This document shows positions 24,746-32,770 of a stretch of DNA of 60,000 nucleotides, piece after piece; the first letter of the stretch is position 1, and each line of letters starts with the position of its first letter. A program made the translations under genes and the position numbers. The stretch lies in assembly GCF_021295395.1 (NCBI RefSeq), contig NZ_JAIWOU010000001.1:1-60000 (forward strand), in the 5' to 3' direction. The notes under the pieces were generated by a model. It saw only the letters and a list, made by a program, of their open reading frames with translations, was not told where the DNA came from and made no database searches. The DNA comes from Komagataeibacter sp. FNDCR2 (GTDB taxonomy: Bacteria > Pseudomonadota > Alphaproteobacteria > Acetobacterales > Acetobacteraceae).

Positions 24746-25422
24746 AACGCACGATCCTGTTCGATACGGAAACCACCGGGCTTGATCCGCTCAAGGGCGA
24801 CCGGGTGATCGAGATCGCGGCGCTGGAGCTGATGGGCGACCTGCCCACGGGGCGGAATTTCCATGTCCTGATCGACCCCGAACGCGACGTGCCCGAGGAA
24901 GCCTCCCGCGTGCATGGCTTCACCCGCGCCGACCTGGAAGGCAAACCCAAATTCGCCCAGATCGCACAGGAGTTCACGGCGTTCATCGGCAGTGACGCCC
25001 TGATTGCCCATAACGCACGGTTCGACTTCGGCTTCCTGAACGCGGAACTGACCCGCGCCGGCCTGCCGGAACTGGATATGGGCCGCATGGTCGATACGCT
25101 CGACATGGCGCGGGAGCGGTTTCCCGGCATGCCCAACAGCCTCGATGCGCTGTGCAGGCGTTTTTCCATCGACCTGTCGGAACGTACCACCCATAACGCC
25201 CTGCTGGACTGCAAGCTGCTGGCGGCGGTCTATCTGGAACTGACCGGCGGCAGGCAGCGCGGGCTGGGCCTGGCGGTGGAGGAGGACGGCGGCGGCATCG
25301 CCAGTTACAATTACGTGCGCCCGCCGGGGCACGTGCCGGTGCGGGTCAGGCCCGATGAAGCGGAAATCGCGGCCCACCGGGCGTTTATCGAACGTCTGTC
25401 CGATCCGCTATGGCTGGGTTGA
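24742..25422 (+). CDS. dnaQ: DNA polymerase III epsilon subunit (proofreading exonuclease)
   Basis: The 3'-5' editing exonuclease of the replicative polymerase core. The 226-residue product has all DEDDh motifs: FDTETTG (Exo I), HNARFDFGFLN (Exo II) and HNALLDCKLL (Exo III). The C-terminal tail for binding the polymerase alpha subunit is short, as in other alphaproteobacteria. Translation is coupled to coaE by a 4-bp overlap. A 96-bp gap follows before the Mla-like operon. Confidence 0.94.
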   Translation: MKRTILFDTETTGLDPLKGDRVIEIAALELMGDLPTGRNFHVLIDPERDVPEEASRVHGFTRADLEGKPKFAQIAQEFTAFIGSDALIAHNARFDFGFLNAELTRAGLPELDMGRMVDTLDMARERFPGMPNSLDALCRRFSIDLSERTTHNALLDCKLLAAVYLELTGGRQRGLGLAVEEDGGGIASYNYVRPPGHVPVRVRPDEAEIAAHRAFIERLSDPLWLG

Positions 25423-25518
25423 ACCATATGCAGGCCATAAAGGGTTTGGTCGGCGCGGTATGTCTGGTCTAGGGTCTGCAAACACACCGTACCTGATGTC
25501 TTGAACAGGAAGAGAGCA

Positions 25519-27864
25519 TTGTCCACGGACGAGATTGTCGATCCCACGATTGCCCCTTCCGACCAGTTCCGGCGCTTCCTGTTTCATATTGGCATTCCCG
25601 TCGCCGGGGTGGTTTCGGTCATCGCCATTATCGCGGGGGTGGGGTGGCATTCCTACCAGACGGCCCGCACGGGCGCGCTCGCCCTGACGCATGACCTGCT
25701 GGTCAGCCAGCAGGATTATATCGCCAAGGAAGTCAGTTCCTTCCTCATGCCGGCCTCGGCCGGGGCCATCGTGGCGCGCGACATGCTCGAACATGGCGCA
25801 CCGGTCGTCGAGCAGAAAATATTCAATGGCTACAGCAGCACCATGCTGCGCAACGTGCCGCAGATCCAGTCCTTCTACCTGGCTGATAGCGACGGAAATT
25901 TCAGCACGCTCGAACGTGGTGAAAACAATCAGGGCGTTGCCGTCACCACCCTGCAGAACCGCGGAACGGGCAAGGCCACGTTCGCCCACGAACTGCGCGA
26001 CGCGCAGGACAAGGTCATACGGCAGTGGCAGACGGCGGCGGGTGATTACGACCCGCGCGGCCATAGCTGGTTTGCCGATACGGTCAAGGCCGGGCAGGAG
26101 TTCTGGACACACCCCTACGTGGTAGAAGTCACCCGCCAGCTGATCCTCACCTCCGCCGTGCCGTATAAGGGGCAGGATGACAGGACGCATGTCTATGCCA
26201 TCAACATCTCCCTCGATCACCTGAACAAATTCCTGAACTCGCTCAAGATCGGGGAAAGCGGTAACGCCATCCTGCTGGACCATGACGGCCACGTCCTGGC
26301 CGGGCACGGCATGGAGGAAACGCTGGTCCGGGCCAATGGTGACCCGATGAAGATGGTGATCGACCCCACCCGCTTTCCGGTCATGACCAAGGCGTTCGAT
26401 CAGTACCGCGTCCATGGCTTTGGCGCGCGGACGGTGCGCGTAAACGACAGGAGCTATGTCACCATTACGGCGAACCTGCCGGTGGGCAAGGATAGCTGGG
26501 TGCTGCTGCTGGTCGCGCCGGAGGATGATTTTTCACGCTTCGCGCTGGCGTCGGGGCGGCAGAATCTCCTGTTTTCCATTCTTGTCGTGCTCATGGCGTC
26601 GGGGCTGGGGTTCATGCTGTTCCTCCAGGCCCGCAGGAGCGAGCGCCTGCGCCGCGAGATCCTGCAGTCCCATGCCGTGGCCAATTACGAGAGCCATGCC
26701 CTGCAATCCGTCGCCGCGTATCCCGAACTGTTCAACCCCGAGGATAACGCCCTTATCCTGACCGAGGCGCTGGCCGACCAGTCCCATGCCCGTCGCGCGG
26801 CCATATGGCGCATCCTGCATGATGGGCGCACGCTCATGTGCATCGATTCCTATGACCGGCAGCAGGACGTGCATTCCGGTGGCTTCGAAATGGGGACGAC
26901 CGACCTCAAGAGCTTTTTCGACGCCGTATCCCATGGGGATCCGCTGGCGATCACCAGCGCGGCGGATGATGGGCGCACATCCGCCTTCTACCGCGTGTAC
27001 ATGCGCAGCTTCGGCAGCAAATCCCTGTTCTGCAACCCCATTCAGGGCGCGAGCGGGCCCGTGGGCGTCATCACGCTGGAAGATGCGCCACGGGCGGATA
27101 TGGTGTCGCATTTCGTGGACATGATCGCCGGTGTCGCGGCGGCCCGTTTTTCCGCCCAGCATTACACGGCCGTCGCCGCGGCGAAGGAGGAGCTGGAAGG
27201 CGAACCCACGGTCGATGAGGAACCGCACGACCCCAGCCAGGGCTTCCTGCTGGCGCCCGGCGCGCTGGCCATGAGCGGCCAGCAGCAGGCCCCGGCCGAC
27301 CTGAGCGGGGTGGATGGTTTCTATCCCGCCGTCGGCATCATGGTCATCAGCCTGTCCGATATGGTGATGACGGCCCAGAACGACCCCACCGCCAACATCA
27401 AGCTGATTGATACGATGGCGGGCCTGTTGCAGGACATTGCCCATCAATGCGGGCTGTATTCCATCCGTATGCTCGGGCACCGGGTGGTCTGTGTCGCGGG
27501 CTGCTCGCGCACGCCGGACAAGGGGGCCGCGTACCGTATCGCCAACGCGGCGCTGATGATGCGCGAGAACACGCTGTCCATGCTGGCCAAGGCGGATCTG
27601 GACCCCGTATTCCGTATCGGGATTGATGTGGGGCCGGTCTTCGGCGGCATGCTGGGCAAGGAGCCGCAGGCGTTCAACCTGTGGGGCGACGCCATGGGCA
27701 TGGCCGAGATGATGGCGCAGGGCGCGCCCGATGTCGGCACCATCCAGGTGACGGAGGATGTCTATCTCGCCTTGCGGCAGAACTTCCTGTTCCGTGAGCG
27801 CGGGCGCTTCTTTATCCCCGGCGTGGGCCTGACCCGTACCTATGTGCTGGCCGGGCGGCGATGA
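25519..27864 (+). CDS. Cache-type membrane receptor with degenerate class III cyclase domain
   Basis: A 781-residue membrane protein in this order: N-terminal transmembrane helix (IPVAGVVSVIAIIAGVGW), a long periplasmic Cache-like sensor, a second helix (LLFSILVVLMASGLGFMLFL), a GAF-like cytoplasmic stretch and a C-terminal adenylate/guanylate cyclase fold. The fold is clear (RIGIDVGPVFGG, FNLWGDAMGMAEMM), but catalytic residues are lost. Asp614 remains; the second metal Asp is His654, the substrate Lys is Arg650, and the transition-state Asn and Arg are Gly727 and Met731. It is probably a signalling pseudo-enzyme. The TTG at 25519 is chosen as start because AGGAAGAG lies just upstream; an in-frame TTG at 25501 is the alternative. 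The stop overlaps the permease gene by ATGA. Confidence 0.8.
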   Translation: MSTDEIVDPTIAPSDQFRRFLFHIGIPVAGVVSVIAIIAGVGWHSYQTARTGALALTHDLLVSQQDYIAKEVSSFLMPASAGAIVARDMLEHGAPVVEQKIFNGYSSTMLRNVPQIQSFYLADSDGNFSTLERGENNQGVAVTTLQNRGTGKATFAHELRDAQDKVIRQWQTAAGDYDPRGHSWFADTVKAGQEFWTHPYVVEVTRQLILTSAVPYKGQDDRTHVYAINISLDHLNKFLNSLKIGESGNAILLDHDGHVLAGHGMEETLVRANGDPMKMVIDPTRFPVMTKAFDQYRVHGFGARTVRVNDRSYVTITANLPVGKDSWVLLLVAPEDDFSRFALASGRQNLLFSILVVLMASGLGFMLFLQARRSERLRREILQSHAVANYESHALQSVAAYPELFNPEDNALILTEALADQSHARRAAIWRILHDGRTLMCIDSYDRQQDVHSGGFEMGTTDLKSFFDAVSHGDPLAITSAADDGRTSAFYRVYMRSFGSKSLFCNPIQGASGPVGVITLEDAPRADMVSHFVDMIAGVAAARFSAQHYTAVAAAKEELEGEPTVDEEPHDPSQGFLLAPGALAMSGQQQAPADLSGVDGFYPAVGIMVISLSDMVMTAQNDPTANIKLIDTMAGLLQDIAHQCGLYSIRMLGHRVVCVAGCSRTPDKGAAYRIANAALMMRENTLSMLAKADLDPVFRIGIDVGPVFGGMLGKEPQAFNLWGDAMGMAEMMAQGAPDVGTIQVTEDVYLALRQNFLFRERGRFFIPGVGLTRTYVLAGRR

Positions 27865-28757
27865 CGGACGGCCTCCCCCCCGGCAGCGCGCAGGCGGGCA
27901 AGGGCGCGCCCGCGTCGCCCGTGGCCTCGCCCCCGTCCGATGAGGGCGGTCGCATCGTGCTCATGCTGCGGCGTTTCGCGCCATGGCTGGCCAGCATCGG
28001 GCGGCTGACGCGCCATCAGGTCCGTTTCACGCTGCTGCTGATCGGGGCCGGGTGGGGCACCCTGCGTGAAAGCCTGCGCCCCAATTCATGGCGCAGGCCG
28101 GTTCTGTACGAATTCCGCGCAACGCTGCGGCAGGTGATCGGCGGTGGTTTCCTGAGCATCGTGATCACGGCGACGCTGACGGGCCTTATGGTCGTATCAC
28201 AGGCGGCATACTGGCTTGGCTATGCCGGAATGGCGCAGATGACGGGCTCCATTCTCGTTTCGGTGCTGGTGCGCGAAATCTCGCCCATTCTTGTGGGCAT
28301 CATCCTGATGGGGCGTAGCGGCATGCTGTCGCTGACCGAGATCGGGATGCTGGTTCTGGGCGGCGAGGTGCGCAGCCTGCAGGCGCGCGGCATCGACCCC
28401 TTCCTCGCGCTGGTCATGCCGCGCACGTTCGCGTTCACGGTGGGCGGTTTCACGCTGGGCATGATCTTTTCCGTCGTGTCGCTGCTCATGGGGTTCGTGG
28501 TGGCCCATGCCAATGGCGCCATCACATCATCGGTATGGACATTCTTCTTCAACGTCCTTGCCGCTATGACAACGTGGGATTACCTGGTCATTCCGCTGAA
28601 ATTCGTGCTGGTCGGGTTCTTCGTGGGGCTGGGCGCGTGCATCACGGGCCTGACGGTCAGCAGCAATGACACGATGGCCACCATCATGCCACGCGGCTTC
28701 GCGCGCGGGATCATGCTGGTGCTGGTGGTCAATATCCTCTTCATGCTGGATTTCTGA
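27861..28757 (+). CDS. MlaE-type lipid ABC transporter permease
   Basis: Inner-membrane permease of an MCE/Mla-type phospholipid transport system. The 298-residue protein has about five hydrophobic segments and the family block VREISPILVGIILMGRSG, TEIGMLVLGGEVRSL, ARGIDPF and VMPRTFA, the hallmark of MlaE (conserved Arg-Glu-x-x-Pro and Glu-Ile-Gly). An N-terminal Pro/Ser/Gly-rich extension of about 30 residues precedes the first helix. It is coupled to the upstream receptor (ATGA overlap) and 2 bp from the ATPase-like gene. The substrate is inferred to be a glycerophospholipid or other envelope lipid. Confidence 0.88.
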   Translation: MTDGLPPGSAQAGKGAPASPVASPPSDEGGRIVLMLRRFAPWLASIGRLTRHQVRFTLLLIGAGWGTLRESLRPNSWRRPVLYEFRATLRQVIGGGFLSIVITATLTGLMVVSQAAYWLGYAGMAQMTGSILVSVLVREISPILVGIILMGRSGMLSLTEIGMLVLGGEVRSLQARGIDPFLALVMPRTFAFTVGGFTLGMIFSVVSLLMGFVVAHANGAITSSVWTFFFNVLAAMTTWDYLVIPLKFVLVGFFVGLGACITGLTVSSNDTMATIMPRGFARGIMLVLVVNILFMLDF

Positions 28758-28759
28758 TC

Positions 28760-29455
28760 ATGACAGCGAACGCTCCCCTGCTGGAACTGCGCGACGCCGT
28801 GCCCACGTTCGAGGAAAGCGGCCTGATGCCCGCGCCCTACAACCTGCGCATGATGCCCGGTGAATGCGTGGTGATCGACTGTCGCGACAGCGCGCGGGCC
28901 GCCATATTCGCGGATCTGTGCTCGGGCATGGTTTCGCTTGCGCAGGGCAGTGTCAGCTTCATGGGGCTGGACTGGAGTACGCTGCGCGACAGGCAGCTTA
29001 ACGCCCTGCGGGGGCGCATCGGCCGCATTTCGCGCCACGGGAGCTGGCTCAACCTGTTCGGCACGCATCTCAACATCATGCTGCCGCAGCTCTACCATAC
29101 GACCGATACGTTCGAGGATGTCGTGGAGCACGCGACCCGGCTGGGGCATGCCTTCGGCCTTCCCGGCCTGCCTATTACCGCGCCGGACCGCCTTTCGGCC
29201 GCCGATCTGGCGCGCGCGGCCTGTGTGCGGGCCTTCCTCGGGCGGCCGGAGCTGCTGGTGCTGGAAGATATATCCGACACCCTGCCCGAAGAGAGCGTGC
29301 TGCCGTTTTTTGAAACGATCACCGCCGCGCGGGACCGGGGCTGTGGCGTGTTATGGTTCGTCCGCTCCGCGGCGGCCTGGCGTGAATATCGCAAGGCGGT
29401 GAATCTCCACATGCGCCTTCTTGACGAAGGTCTTTTTTCCATGCGGGTGGTGTAA
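28760..29455 (+). CDS. MlaF-like ABC ATPase homologue lacking Walker A (pseudo-ATPase)
   Basis: A 231-residue protein in the position of the ATPase of an Mla operon. Overall length, strand pattern and spacing fit an ABC nucleotide-binding domain, but every catalytic motif is eroded. Where the P-loop (GxxGxGKS/T) should be, around residues 40-48, it has DCRDSARAA with no Lys. The LSGGQ signature is LSAAD (145-149), Walker B is LLVLED (165-170), and the H-loop region reads WFVRSAAAW without His. The frame is intact and coupled on both sides, so this is a conserved-looking degenerate subunit and not an obvious pseudogene. How the complex would be powered is open. Confidence 0.78.
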   Translation: MTANAPLLELRDAVPTFEESGLMPAPYNLRMMPGECVVIDCRDSARAAIFADLCSGMVSLAQGSVSFMGLDWSTLRDRQLNALRGRIGRISRHGSWLNLFGTHLNIMLPQLYHTTDTFEDVVEHATRLGHAFGLPGLPITAPDRLSAADLARAACVRAFLGRPELLVLEDISDTLPEESVLPFFETITAARDRGCGVLWFVRSAAAWREYRKAVNLHMRLLDEGLFSMRVV

Positions 29456-30402
29456 TGGTCCAGAAACAACAGTCAGACGGGCTCCGGCAACTGGTGCGTG
29501 TCCGTTACGCGGATGAATGGGTCGGGGTTCTTGTCCTGGTCTCCCTTGTCATCCTGTTCGGCGCCGTGATCGAGGCCGGCGTACTGCATGACTGGCTTAC
29601 GCCAGCGGGCCGGTTGCGGATCGTCCTGCCGGAAAATGGCGTGAGCGGCCTGTCCGTGGGCGATGATCTGGAGGTGATGGGCATTCACGCCGGGACGGTG
29701 CGGCGCGTGCGCATCAATCCCTCGGGCGGCATGTACGCCATTGCGGAAATCGACCCCGATATCGAACCCTATATCCGCCGTGACAGCACGGCCATCATCC
29801 GCAAGCGTTTCGTGGTGGCCGGGGCCAGCTATATCGACATCTCGCGTGGGGTGGGCGACAAGCTGAACTGGAGCTATGCCGTGCTGAGCGCCACCAACGC
29901 GCCCAACCCGGCGGACACCATCACCCAGACCTTCAGCGATATCCGCGATCGCGTCATTCCTGTTCTCGATAACGCCCAGCACATGATGGCGACACTGGAT
30001 GCGACCATTACCGACATGCATGCGGGCAAGGGGTCCATCGGGCGTCTCATGACCAATGACGACCTGATCCGCCAGGCCGAGCAGATGATCACGACGCTCG
30101 ACGCCACGATCGGCCAGCTCACACCCATTGAAAAGCAGCTTGCCAGTGTGATGGACAAGGCCAATGCCAGCATGACCAACGTGCAGAAAGCCACGGGTGA
30201 CCTGAGCAACGCAACGCCCGCCATCACCCGCAACCTGCAGGATGCCAGCCAGCAGCTTCCGGTCCTTCTGGTGCAGGCGCAGAGTACAGTCAGCAGCTTG
30301 GAAAAGCTGGTCGATCAGATGCGCGGGCTGTGGATACTGGGTGGCAGTTCGAAAAAAGTGACGCACGGGCACCGCCTCCCGGCGCAGAGGGTGCAGCCAT
30401 GA
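29455..30402 (+). CDS. MlaD-type MCE domain protein
   Basis: Periplasmic substrate-binding component of an Mla-type lipid transporter. The 315-residue product has one N-terminal transmembrane anchor (WVGVLVLVSLVILFGAVIEA) and one MCE domain at about residues 50-125 (GVSGLSVGDDLEVMGIHAGTVRRV, then KRFVVAGASYIDISRG). A long helical region (about 140-290) with regularly spaced hydrophobics resembles the coiled needle of larger MCE proteins. It starts on the last base of the preceding stop (TAATG) and overlaps the next gene by ATGA. Confidence 0.88.
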   Translation: MVQKQQSDGLRQLVRVRYADEWVGVLVLVSLVILFGAVIEAGVLHDWLTPAGRLRIVLPENGVSGLSVGDDLEVMGIHAGTVRRVRINPSGGMYAIAEIDPDIEPYIRRDSTAIIRKRFVVAGASYIDISRGVGDKLNWSYAVLSATNAPNPADTITQTFSDIRDRVIPVLDNAQHMMATLDATITDMHAGKGSIGRLMTNDDLIRQAEQMITTLDATIGQLTPIEKQLASVMDKANASMTNVQKATGDLSNATPAITRNLQDASQQLPVLLVQAQSTVSSLEKLVDQMRGLWILGGSSKKVTHGHRLPAQRVQP

Positions 30403-31283
30403 CCATGAAAAAGGACTATGCGGCCGTGGTGTTCGTCCTTGCGCTGGCGGGATGTGGCGGGGGGCAGCAGTCTTCCGCCCCCACGGACACGACGCTGTCG
30501 CAGGCCATGGATACGGCGGGTGAAGCCGTGAGCCTTGACCGCCTTGCGGTGGCGGAACAGCAGTATCGCACCGCGGGCGAGCGTGCGCTGGCACGTGACG
30601 ACGTTACGGCGATAGGGGATTCGGGCTATAATCTGGCCACGGTCCAGCTTGACGCCAACCGGCCGCAGGACGCGCTGGGCACCATCGCGGCGACGCGGGC
30701 GGCGCTGGTGGTGCGCGGGCAGTCCGGCGATGATGCCGGGCTGGATCTGGTGCAGGCTGGCGCGTTGCACCGTCTTGGCCGCGATCCGGAAGCCGCCGCC
30801 GCCGCCACCCGGGCGGCGGGCGCGCAGGATTCGGATATTGCGGAAAAGGGTCAGTTCATTCGTGGCCTGATTGCCGATGACAGTGCGGACCATGCAACAC
30901 TGGCCTCCGTCGCGGCCTATTTCGCGACGCTGGCAGGCAGGATCCCCCCGAACTGGAACGCGGATGCGAAGGAAATCGCGGCCCGTAACCTGCTGGCGAC
31001 CAATGGCGATGCGCGAACCGCATGGCAGGACGCCCTGCAGGCCGCCACGATCCGCCAGCAGCAGGTGGCGTATCGCGACATGGCCCGTGCGCTGGGTGTT
31101 GCGGCCCGCGCGGCTGACAGGGCGGGCGACGGGCAGGCCGCCTTACAGCTTTATGCCCGCGCCAGCCAGAGCGCGCGGCAGGCGGGCGATACCGTCATGG
31201 CGGATCGCTGGGCCAAACTGGCCGGTGCATCAGCGGGGGTGGACCCCTTCGCCCGGCCCGAACCCCCGGCGCATACCAAATAG
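30399..31283 (+). CDS. TPR-like lipoprotein of the Mla-like operon
   Basis: A 294-residue predicted lipoprotein: MTMKKDY start, hydrophobic segment VVFVLALAGC with lipobox LAGC at residue 19, then a mature part rich in Ala, Asp and Gln. Helical repeats (YNLATVQLDANRPQDALG, DALQAATIRQQQVAYRDMARALG and similar) resemble tetratricopeptide units. It does not look like the PqiC/DUF330 auxiliary lipoproteins. Overlap with the MCE gene (ATGA) places it in the same operon, so I infer a role as outer-membrane or periplasmic partner of that transporter. The start is set by the overlap and the lipoprotein signal. Confidence 0.75.
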   Translation: MTMKKDYAAVVFVLALAGCGGGQQSSAPTDTTLSQAMDTAGEAVSLDRLAVAEQQYRTAGERALARDDVTAIGDSGYNLATVQLDANRPQDALGTIAATRAALVVRGQSGDDAGLDLVQAGALHRLGRDPEAAAAATRAAGAQDSDIAEKGQFIRGLIADDSADHATLASVAAYFATLAGRIPPNWNADAKEIAARNLLATNGDARTAWQDALQAATIRQQQVAYRDMARALGVAARAADRAGDGQAALQLYARASQSARQAGDTVMADRWAKLAGASAGVDPFARPEPPAHTK

Positions 31284-31309
31284 GACGGCATGCCCCAGGA
31301 GATGGGGGA

Positions 31310-32770
31310 TTAGCCCTGTGACTGCAGGGCGGTATGGCGTTCGAGCAGGGAAGTGCTGGCGCGGTTCAGGCCGGTCAGCCGTACCTGCTTGCCCTGGGCT
31401 TCCAGCCTGCCCACCAGTTCCTCCAGCGCGCTCACGGCCGTCATGTCCCACAGATGGGCCTGTGTCAGGTCGATGGTGATGGTGCGCGCCGTGTCATGCA
31501 GGTCGAAGGCATCGGTAAAGCTGTCGGATGAGGCGAAGAAGACCTGCCCGTCCACCTTATAGGCCCGGCTGCCGCCATCGGCGGAAAGCGTGCTGCTGAC
31601 AGACAGCATGCTGGAAACCTGAAAGGCGAAGAACAGGCCGTTGAGCAGTACGCCCACCGCGACGCCCGCCGCCAGGTCATGCGTGCCGACAACGACCGCG
31701 ACGGTCGCGAGCATGATAACGCTGGTGGTGCGTGGATGGTGCGCCAGATCCCGCAGCGATGACCATGAAAACGTGCTGGCCGACACCATGATCATGATCG
31801 CGACCAGCGCCGTTACCGGCACTTGCGCCACCCATGGCCGCAGCACGACCATAAGCAGCAGCAGGAACGCCCCCGCTACAAAGGTGGACAGTCGGCCCCG
31901 TCCGCCGTAGCGCAGGTTTCCCACCGTCTGCCCGATCATGCCACAGCCCGCGATGCCGCCAAACAGGCCGACGGCGATGTTGGCCACCCCAAGCCCCACG
32001 CATTCCTGCCGCTTGCTGCTGTGGGTTTCGGTCATGTCATCCACCACGCGGGCGGTCATCATGGATTCGAGCATGCCCACGCTGGCCATGGCCAGCGCGT
32101 AGGGCGCGATCACCTCAAGCGTGGCAAGTGACAGCGGCACGTCCGGCCAGATCAGGTGCGGCAGGCTGTCGGGCAGGCGGCCAAGGTCGGCCACGGTATG
32201 CAGCGGCATGGGATAAAGAACGGACACCGCCGTCAGCACCACAATGCAGATGAGGGGCGAAGGAATGGCGGAGAAGACGCGCGGCACGGAATAAATGATC
32301 ACGAGCCCCAGCGCGATCATGGCGTAGCTGTGCCACGTTACATGCAGCATGTGCGGGATCTGCGCGGAAAAGATCAGGATGGCCAGCGCGTTGACAAACC
32401 CGGTGCGCACGGGGCGCGAGACGTAGCGCATGAGCACATGCAGCCGCAGGATGCCGAATATGACCTGCAACAGCCCGCACAGCAGGGTCGCCGCCAGCAG
32501 GTACTGCACGCCATGCGCGCGCACCATGGCCGCGGCCACGAGGGCGACCGAACCCGCGGCCCCCGAGATCATGCCCGGCCTGCCGCCGGTCAGGGCGATC
32601 ACGACGCTTATGACAAACGATGCATACAGCCCGACCGCGGGGTCCACGCCCGCCACGAACGCGAATGCGATGACCTCCGGTATCAGCGCGAACGTCCCGA
32701 CCATGCCGGCCAGCGTGTCACGCGTGATGTTGCCAAACCATTCCTGACGATAACGGGCAAGAGCTGACAT
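31310..32770 (-). CDS. SulP family inorganic anion transporter with STAS domain
   Basis: A 486-residue member of the SLC26/SulP family, which carries sulfate, bicarbonate or dicarboxylates across the inner membrane. About ten or more hydrophobic helices precede a C-terminal STAS domain (ARTITIDLTQAHLWDMTAV and following) at about residues 390-480. Substrate cannot be read from the sequence. The ATG at 32770 is preferred; a TTG at 32818 would overlap queD. Convergent with the lipoprotein gene of the Mla-like operon, 26 bp apart. Confidence 0.85.
   Translation of the reverse strand: MSALARYRQEWFGNITRDTLAGMVGTFALIPEVIAFAFVAGVDPAVGLYASFVISVVIALTGGRPGMISGAAGSVALVAAAMVRAHGVQYLLAATLLCGLLQVIFGILRLHVLMRYVSRPVRTGFVNALAILIFSAQIPHMLHVTWHSYAMIALGLVIIYSVPRVFSAIPSPLICIVVLTAVSVLYPMPLHTVADLGRLPDSLPHLIWPDVPLSLATLEVIAPYALAMASVGMLESMMTARVVDDMTETHSSKRQECVGLGVANIAVGLFGGIAGCGMIGQTVGNLRYGGRGRLSTFVAGAFLLLLMVVLRPWVAQVPVTALVAIMIMVSASTFSWSSLRDLAHHPRTTSVIMLATVAVVVGTHDLAAGVAVGVLLNGLFFAFQVSSMLSVSSTLSADGGSRAYKVDGQVFFASSDSFTDAFDLHDTARTITIDLTQAHLWDMTAVSALEELVGRLEAQGKQVRLTGLNRASTSLLERHTALQSQG

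Follow-up and report, generated by a model that had tools for sequence, protein, structure and literature searches.

What would a sensory receptor control when the transporter encoded beside it has lost its ATP site? This question is raised by a five-gene locus of Komagataeibacter sp. FNDCR2, situated in the first 60,000 nt of contig NZ_JAIWOU010000001.1 (the window, with which contig 1 begins; the genome has 3.29 Mb). Five open reading frames (ORFs), all on the + strand, were read from the sequence at 25519..31283, and code for a membrane receptor, an MlaE-type permease, a pseudo-ATPase, an MCE protein and a TPR lipoprotein. An initial annotation, made from the sequence alone, had described them as a coupled unit, and the junctions that it listed (ATGA between genes 1/2 and 4/5, TAATG between 3/4, and 2 bp between 2/3, from the stop TGA at 28755-28757 to the ATG at 28760) were all confirmed. 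We propose, with a probability of roughly 0.5, that these genes specify a single envelope machine, an MCE lipid conduit that would not be powered by its own ATPase and would be controlled via a cyclase-fold sensor.

The product of gene 3 matched Pfam ABC_tran with 13.7 bits, below the cut-off of 25, and its alignment to the two MlaF proteins of the same genome showed CRDSARAA at the P-loop stretch, where canonical MlaF reads GGSGTGKS. The pattern [AG]xxxxGK[ST] was absent from all 77 loci retrieved in a scan of named genomes and present in both canonical MlaF controls from the window's genome; it was also absent from the 46 ATPases of a first family set, in which the row of genome G126 lacks the P-loop stretch entirely. 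In a 46-row alignment (the window and 45 of the 77 named loci, used for both ATPase and MlaE), Lys never occupies the P-loop Lys position, the signature glycines are kept in two and three rows, and 44 rows have Glu for the Walker B Asp; where the catalytic Glu would be, six rows have Glu and 28 Asp, and the H-loop position contains Arg in 32 and His in none. The full set of Walker A, signature, Walker B and H-loop is not found in gene 3. The mean frequency of the top residue in this alignment was 0.91 for VRAFLG, 0.78 for LNIMLPQLYHT and 0.77 for ALRGRIGRISRHGSW, and 0.56 and 0.52 for the H-loop and the P-loop stretch, respectively. An AlphaFold model of the protein (pLDDT 91.6, pTM 0.90) has the fold of an ABC nucleotide-binding domain (NBD), its nearest PDB structures including YbbA, MlaF, LolD and FtsE (TMq about 0.8). 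Matches by sequence and by fold are scattered over FtsE, LolD, MacB, BceA, DppD and MlaF, with no single ABC subfamily standing out.

Gene 1 matched dCache_1, GAF and Guanylate_cyc in Pfam, all above their cut-offs, with 75.2 bits for the cyclase homology domain (PF00211, cut-off 21.9). Aligned to mycobacterial Cya, this domain has His at the second metal Asp, Gly at the transition-state Asn and Met at the Arg, which we take to be the catalytic residues of these enzymes. None of the 71 receptors compared (the window and 70 of the 77 loci, leaving aside missing receptors, those shorter than 650 aa and that of locus L166) contains the complete set of metal Asp, transition-state Asn and Arg: the second metal Asp is kept in three, the Asn in two and the Arg in one, Asn and Arg never occur together, and for the first metal Asp the HMMER and MAFFT alignments disagree, which leaves its position ambiguous. 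The domain of gene 1 is also the sole class III cyclase domain detected in the genome, so the receptor would have no catalytic partner. The view of the initial annotation that two of the five proteins are degenerate enzymes is thus supported throughout the core group, by the counts for the P-loop (0/77) and for the complete cyclase set (0/71).

The unit recurs as such in other genomes. Of 150 genomes sampled from the window's family, which the tool counted as 102 genera, 46 contain an orthologue of the ATPase at E 1e-20 or better and all 46 carry the receptor in the same locus, so that the linkage of receptor and transporter proposed by the initial annotation withstood a neighbourhood analysis. 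At the same threshold the receptor was found in 48 of the 150; in the extra two (G108 and G091) the contig breaks off within the receptor gene. With trimmed profiles, the five genes lie on one strand and in order in 45 of the 46 family loci, the contig of G094 ending inside the MCE gene. An order-wide draw identified the receptor in 119 of 200 genomes and 28 of 51 genera, and genomes of about 2 Mb also retain the system. Among the 77 named loci, the best ATPase relatives are from Komagataeibacter species (82-87 % identity), and the genera include Komagataeibacter, Novacetimonas, Gluconacetobacter, Acetobacter, Asaia, Gluconobacter, Commensalibacter and others; there are also loci from Skermanella aerolata, from Rhodospirillales and alphaproteobacterial metagenome-assembled genomes (MAGs), from MAGs of the Desulfobacterales, which are distantly related sulphate reducers, and from one Candidatus Anammoxibacter. 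The order receptor-MlaE-ATPase-MCE-TPR was found in 75 of the 77 loci and in two phyla, the other two (L091 and L151) being cut by contig ends. Of 76 evaluable loci, 69 have a 4-nt overlap of receptor and MlaE genes, the five Desulfobacterales-type loci all being among them; MlaE and ATPase genes are spaced by -4 to +4 nt in 62 of 76; the ATPase/MCE junction is -1 in 60 and -4 in 12 of 77; and the MCE/TPR junction is -4 in 63 and -1 in 10 of 76. This recurrence of order and junctions indicates that the arrangement is not due to chance.

We also sought seven flanking genes, argH, aroE, coaE, dnaQ, sulP, queD and queC, in 76 loci (dnaQ and sulP were confirmed by Pfam; the other names are presumed from the sequences). 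The joint occurrence of argH, aroE, coaE and dnaQ is confined to Komagataeibacter, Novacetimonas and Gluconacetobacter; locus L143 has coaE and dnaQ, and sulP lies near the unit in seven Acetobacter loci and one of Commensalibacter; none of the seven was found within the available flanks of the other loci. Since the flanks differ while the unit persists, the five genes are the unit. The five genes are under purifying selection: dN/dS values were 0.06-0.35 in pairwise comparisons of the window with three Komagataeibacter loci and one Novacetimonas locus, and 0.06-0.29 in four other locus pairs, one value being undefined, for a TPR pair at saturation. Over 75 loci, the correlations between the pairwise distances of the five proteins are 0.89-0.97, as expected for co-inherited genes. 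In Escherichia coli, MlaF K47A or E170Q did not complement (PMC7367683). Given that MlaF requires its ATP site, and that the present family has lost it everywhere yet is under selection, its transporter should work otherwise.

Outside the family, a class-level search of 289 genomes found a full-length receptor in five, of which four belong to the window's family and the fifth, G315, to another alphaproteobacterial family; two congeners of G315 gave only partial receptor matches. Genome G315 contains the five genes in order and no P-loop (L179:6149-12009), a unit possibly acquired by horizontal transfer. The order of the Desulfobacterales MAG with locus L155 has the system in 11 of 194 genomes, one of which carries two copies (12 loci). 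Ten of these were read anew (three being repeats of L154, L156 and L160; the remaining two are L155 and L159), and in all of them the order is kept and the P-loop is missing, L214 ending short of the TPR gene. In the phylum of that MAG, one of 297 genomes matched at this level (G930 itself) and three scored 100-108 bits. At most three candidates were scored per genome in the class-level search, seven at the phylum level and 14 in the Desulfobacterales order, and absences in these searches are not proofs. In a four-gene tree of 29 of the 77 loci, the five Desulfobacterales-type loci, one of which was filed by its submitter under another delta group, form one clade (100/100); this occurrence could stem from transfer or from old inheritance. 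Plasmid-borne spread was rejected, with no receptor match at E 1e-20 among 72,556 plasmid records.

Six outlying loci show other combinations of the same parts, and all four transporter profiles match all six. In L166 (4976-10454, Candidatus Anammoxibacter), a single protein with a zinc ribbon, GAF, an intact-looking cyclase and PilZ precedes MlaE, a P-loop-less ABC protein, MCE and TPR. In L220, from the order of the Desulfobacterales MAG, a hybrid kinase gene lies upstream of a protein with receiver and cyclase domains, followed by MlaE, an ABC-like protein that matched nothing in Pfam, MCE and TPR. Locus L224 has MlaE, a P-loop-less ABC protein, MCE and TPR, adjoined by the convergent gene of a cyclase protein (CHASE2-like by eye). 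Loci L225, L226 and L240 have MlaE, a P-loop-bearing ABC protein (APVASGKS, GGGGSGKT and GGDGAGKS), MCE and TPR, and no cyclase domain at E 0.01 within the 14-15 kb read; the cyclase profile does detect the cyclase domains of L155, L166, L220 and L224. By eye, the ABC signature and Walker B already look degenerate in L225 (6707-11216) and L226 (6370-10013). Locus L240 (4036-7513) is a second MlaE-ABC-MCE-TPR unit of the Anammoxibacter genome of L166, beside TRAP-type transporter genes (by eye), and the unit of L225 is followed by a receiver/histidine kinase gene, again by eye. Locus L166 stands alone among 294 Planctomycetota genomes, the next match scoring 72 bits; 14 further Planctomycetota loci were fetched from among the matches, and all contain a P-loop ORF.

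Our trees cover either MlaE only (46 rows) or the four genes of the 29 loci mentioned above. In the MlaE tree, 27 rows of the system lie on one side of a branch (100/99), L220 diverging first, and the MlaE proteins of L166, L224, L225, L226 and L240 (row L234, a long branch) are placed between these and 14 canonical rows (100/98). From this placement, the P-loop could have disappeared repeatedly, always in the vicinity of a cyclase domain. In the input gene the cyclase fold is constant and the sensor varies, which makes the cyclase-like domain the candidate for contact with the transporter. Tentatively, and at somewhat less than even odds, these loci could represent a type of lipid transporter of the cell envelope that has given up ATP hydrolysis for sensory control, a cyclase-fold sensor module and a pseudo-NBD forming a signal-gated, nucleotide-independent MCE conduit, and whose living relatives preserve the steps: from a P-loop unit without cyclase, to an intact-looking cyclase with a dead ATPase, to both dead. 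The outlying series, six loci selected by high score, is a lead.

The partners of the pseudo-ATPase would make up the envelope conduit. Gene 2 matched Pfam MlaE (PF02405) with 114.7 bits (cut-off 22.5) and NCBIfam TIGR00056 with 79.8 bits, below the cut-off of 212.2, and it is the weakest of the three MlaE proteins of the genome; no STAS domain was found in it with Pfam, even at E 10. It reads GGEVRSL at a segment, presumably the coupling helix, that reads DQIDAL or EEIDAL in the two canonical MlaE proteins of the genome, and its relatives mostly have GG or xG followed by Arg there, the exceptions being L150, L152 and L166. Gene 4 matched Pfam MlaD/MCE (PF02470) with 40.9 bits (cut-off 25.1) and its C-terminal half is probably helical. 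The smaller alignments contained 32 and 26 of 34 tabulated loci, each with the window; in the latter, the length of gene 4 is comparable to that of the MCE protein with a long C-terminus of the Mpc system described below. Gene 5 matched TPR in Pfam only below cut-off and gave no PqiC-like (ABC_trans_aux) match; its AlphaFold model (mean pLDDT 91.2) is a 13-helix repeat forming a TPR superhelix, and TPR proteins are its nearest solved structures, at modest scores (best Foldseek E 2e-4). Of 75 relatives, 69 show the lipobox pattern; among the six that do not, four have Cys at that place (by eye), and L136 and L166 lack it.

The assembly, contacts, lipid substrate and gating proposed here are deduced from gene content and order, degeneracy, selection and predicted folds. 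An inner-membrane MlaE, an MCE ring (by analogy a hexamer) prolonged by a long helical part, and the lipid-anchored TPR protein would together form an intermembrane conduit for lipids or another hydrophobic molecule. The ABC subunit, with its fold kept and normal ATP binding and hydrolysis predicted to be impossible, would sit beneath the permease as a fixed or allosteric adaptor. The Cache domain would sense a small periplasmic ligand and relay the signal via GAF to the dimerised cyclase-like domain, which would no longer make cAMP or cGMP and would, by contact with the pseudo-ATPase or MlaE, open, close or re-orient the conduit; flux would be driven by a gradient of the substrate or by another motor. 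This suggests that sensing replaced fuel in the control of a channel.

What the receptor might sense can be approached from its Cache domain, alignable to that of the amino-acid receptor PctA. The dCache_1AA motif corresponds to PctA positions Y121, R126, W128, Y129, Y144 and D173 (PMC10104139). The window reads YHWFYN at these six positions and thus does not conform to the amino-acid motif. The complete YRWYYD of PctA occurs in eight of the 71 receptors, from three unclassified Acetobacteraceae MAGs, one alphaproteobacterial MAG, three Desulfobacterales and Skermanella, whose ligands would be amino acids. The amine-binding Asp position contains Asn in 59 receptors, Asp in 10 and Ser in two, and the carboxylate-binding Arg is replaced by His in Komagataeibacter, Novacetimonas, Gluconacetobacter entanii and Acidomonas. 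Since the acetic acid bacteria have Asn in place of the amine-binding Asp, their ligand would have moved away from amino acids, perhaps to something else, possibly a carboxylate. The receptor gene is interrupted by stops in G126, G136 and G046, among genomes of about 2 Mb, which indicates that the system is undergoing loss in places. In G181 (C5:25692-28030) the receptor is encoded by two ORFs with a 4-base overlap, a sensor half and a GAF-cyclase half, possibly a natural two-protein receptor.

Several explanations compete with a signal-gated conduit. The transporter could still be ATP-driven if the pseudo-ATPase formed an asymmetric NBD dimer with an active MlaF from another operon, and the window's genome does contain two other MlaE loci with P-loop MlaF proteins. 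In a mixed NBD dimer, each composite site combines the P-loop of one partner with the signature of the other; here, the loss of P-loop, signature glycines (2 and 3 of 46) and H-loop His (0/46) would leave no complete site, and the MlaE segment expected to contact the NBD is unlike both canonical MlaE proteins, so we consider this dimer improbable. One of these other loci, L185, is a separate operon of STAS-MlaE, ABC_tran, MCE and ABC_trans_aux, with a weak STAS_2 match, and resembles the Mpc operon described below. The other (L184:2231-3895) is an MlaE-MlaF pair between a TonB-receptor-like and a radA-like gene, without an adjoining MCE gene; MCE domains occur at six places in the genome. A simple co-regulation, with the receptor signalling elsewhere by weak residual activity or protein contact, would also account for the genetic linkage seen. 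This is unlikely, though with a real share of the probability, given the -4 overlap preserved in 69 of 76 loci despite changing flanks, and the outlying relatives that, with another sensor, still keep the cyclase fold beside the same transporter.

The signal could also run in reverse, the transporter/MCE part sensing envelope lipids and the receptor combining that input with a small ligand. There are known transport-coupled sensors, such as BceABS, and BceABS and BceA were among the structure and sequence matches; a receptor without recognisable catalytic output would be limited to contact signalling, and we regard this direction as quite improbable. That the locus is a decaying remnant of an Mla operon, as two dead enzymes and the interrupted copies in a few genomes could suggest, is extremely improbable in view of dN/dS values of 0.06-0.35 for all five genes in Komagataeibacter/Novacetimonas pairs and of identical losses in an identical order across phyla; selection and cross-phylum gene order together led us to reject a remnant or a chance arrangement. 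Several observations nevertheless weigh against a nucleotide-independent, signal-gated conduit. Remnants of the ATP site are conserved (0.74 for the Walker B stretch and 0.69 for the signature stretch, with Asp in 45/46), so parts of it seem to persist in altered form, and Lys and the acidic residue of the base pocket are often retained in the cyclase-like domain; residual nucleotide binding by either protein is possible. Contact and transport are themselves predictions, as is the energy source of the conduit. The correlation of P-loop and cyclase comes from the six outlying loci only, and the cyclase gene of L224 is convergent and outside the operon. Distribution is patchy, with a clear ATPase orthologue (>200 bits) in six of 398 Pseudomonadota genomes and the next match at about 95 bits, and receptor copies are broken or split in G126, G136, G181 and G046, which suggests that the system is dispensable for some hosts.

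The E. coli Mla pathway contains MlaB (STAS), MlaC and MlaA where the present unit has the receptor and the TPR lipoprotein. PqiABC and YebST (LetAB) of E. coli are MCE envelope conduits without an ABC ATPase subunit, made of multi-MCE proteins and a PqiA-type membrane partner; unlike these, the present unit combines a single MCE domain with MlaE and a remnant of the ABC fold. Both the energy supply of MCE systems and the direction of their lipid transport have been much debated, and a natural MCE-MlaE machine without an ATP site and with a dead-enzyme sensor would offer a direct test of gated passive channels. An evolutionary path from enzyme to adaptor is also suggested for two different enzymes within one operon, in acetic acid bacteria that are tractable and used for cellulose and vinegar. 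The order sensor-TM-GAF-cyclase (TM, transmembrane segment) is that of Cache-type class III cyclase receptors, although here catalytic residues are lost and the gene overlaps that of a permease. The unit shares MlaE and MCE/MlaD domains and an ABC-fold subunit with E. coli MlaFEDB, where MlaF depends on its ATP site (PMC7367683). A similar layout is that of Mpc (MpcEFDA) of Brucella abortus, whose operon encodes an MlaE-type permease, an ABC ATPase, a lipoprotein and a long single-MCE protein, with a C-terminus proposed to bridge the periplasm; Mpc differs in having only four genes, an MpcF homologous to MlaF, an N-terminal STAS in MpcE and a PqiC-like lipoprotein, the place of which is occupied here by the TPR lipoprotein (PMC12436622). 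A survey of MCE neighbourhoods lists permease, ATPase and DUF330 lipoprotein partners, and the terms TPR and cyclase are absent from its main text (PMC5561183). The components are known. Consistent with the initial annotation, the PMC matches listed, from a collection that most subscription journals fall outside, contained no description of a system so composed, of an ATP site missing family-wide, or of such a transporter paired with a receptor whose cyclase is dead.

Table 1. Genes and overlapping junctions of the five-gene unit in the window
Feature	Coordinates	Strand	Description	Basis
Gene 1	25519..27864	+	Membrane receptor: TM - periplasmic dCache_1 - TM - GAF - degenerate class III cyclase domain	
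Gene 2	27861..28757	+	Divergent MlaE-type permease	Pfam, NCBIfam, alignment, tree
Gene 3	28760..29455	+	Pseudo-ATPase: ABC-ATPase fold without P-loop, signature glycines and H-loop His	
Gene 4	29455..30402	+	One MCE domain, N-terminal TM (by eye), long C-terminal half	
Gene 5	30399..31283	+	TPR lipoprotein, lipobox LALAGC; start ATG 30399 or 30405	
Junction 1/2	27861..27864	+	ATGA start/stop overlap; -4 in 69/76 relatives	
Junction 3/4	29453..29457	+	TAATG overlap; -1 in 60/77 relatives	
Junction 4/5	30399..30402	+	ATGA overlap; -4 in 63/76 relatives	

Translation of gene 1 could start at TTG 25519, immediately preceded by AGGAAGAG, or at TTG 25501, and its TM segments were assigned by eye. 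A simple scan of 25300-31600 revealed no sigma-70-like promoter (shuffles 1.6) and no terminator-like site 3′ of gene 5 on the + strand; it did reveal seven terminator-like sites in total (shuffles 3.6), five of them within genes on the + strand. A gene for a SulP-STAS transporter (window:31310-32818) is convergent to the five-gene unit.

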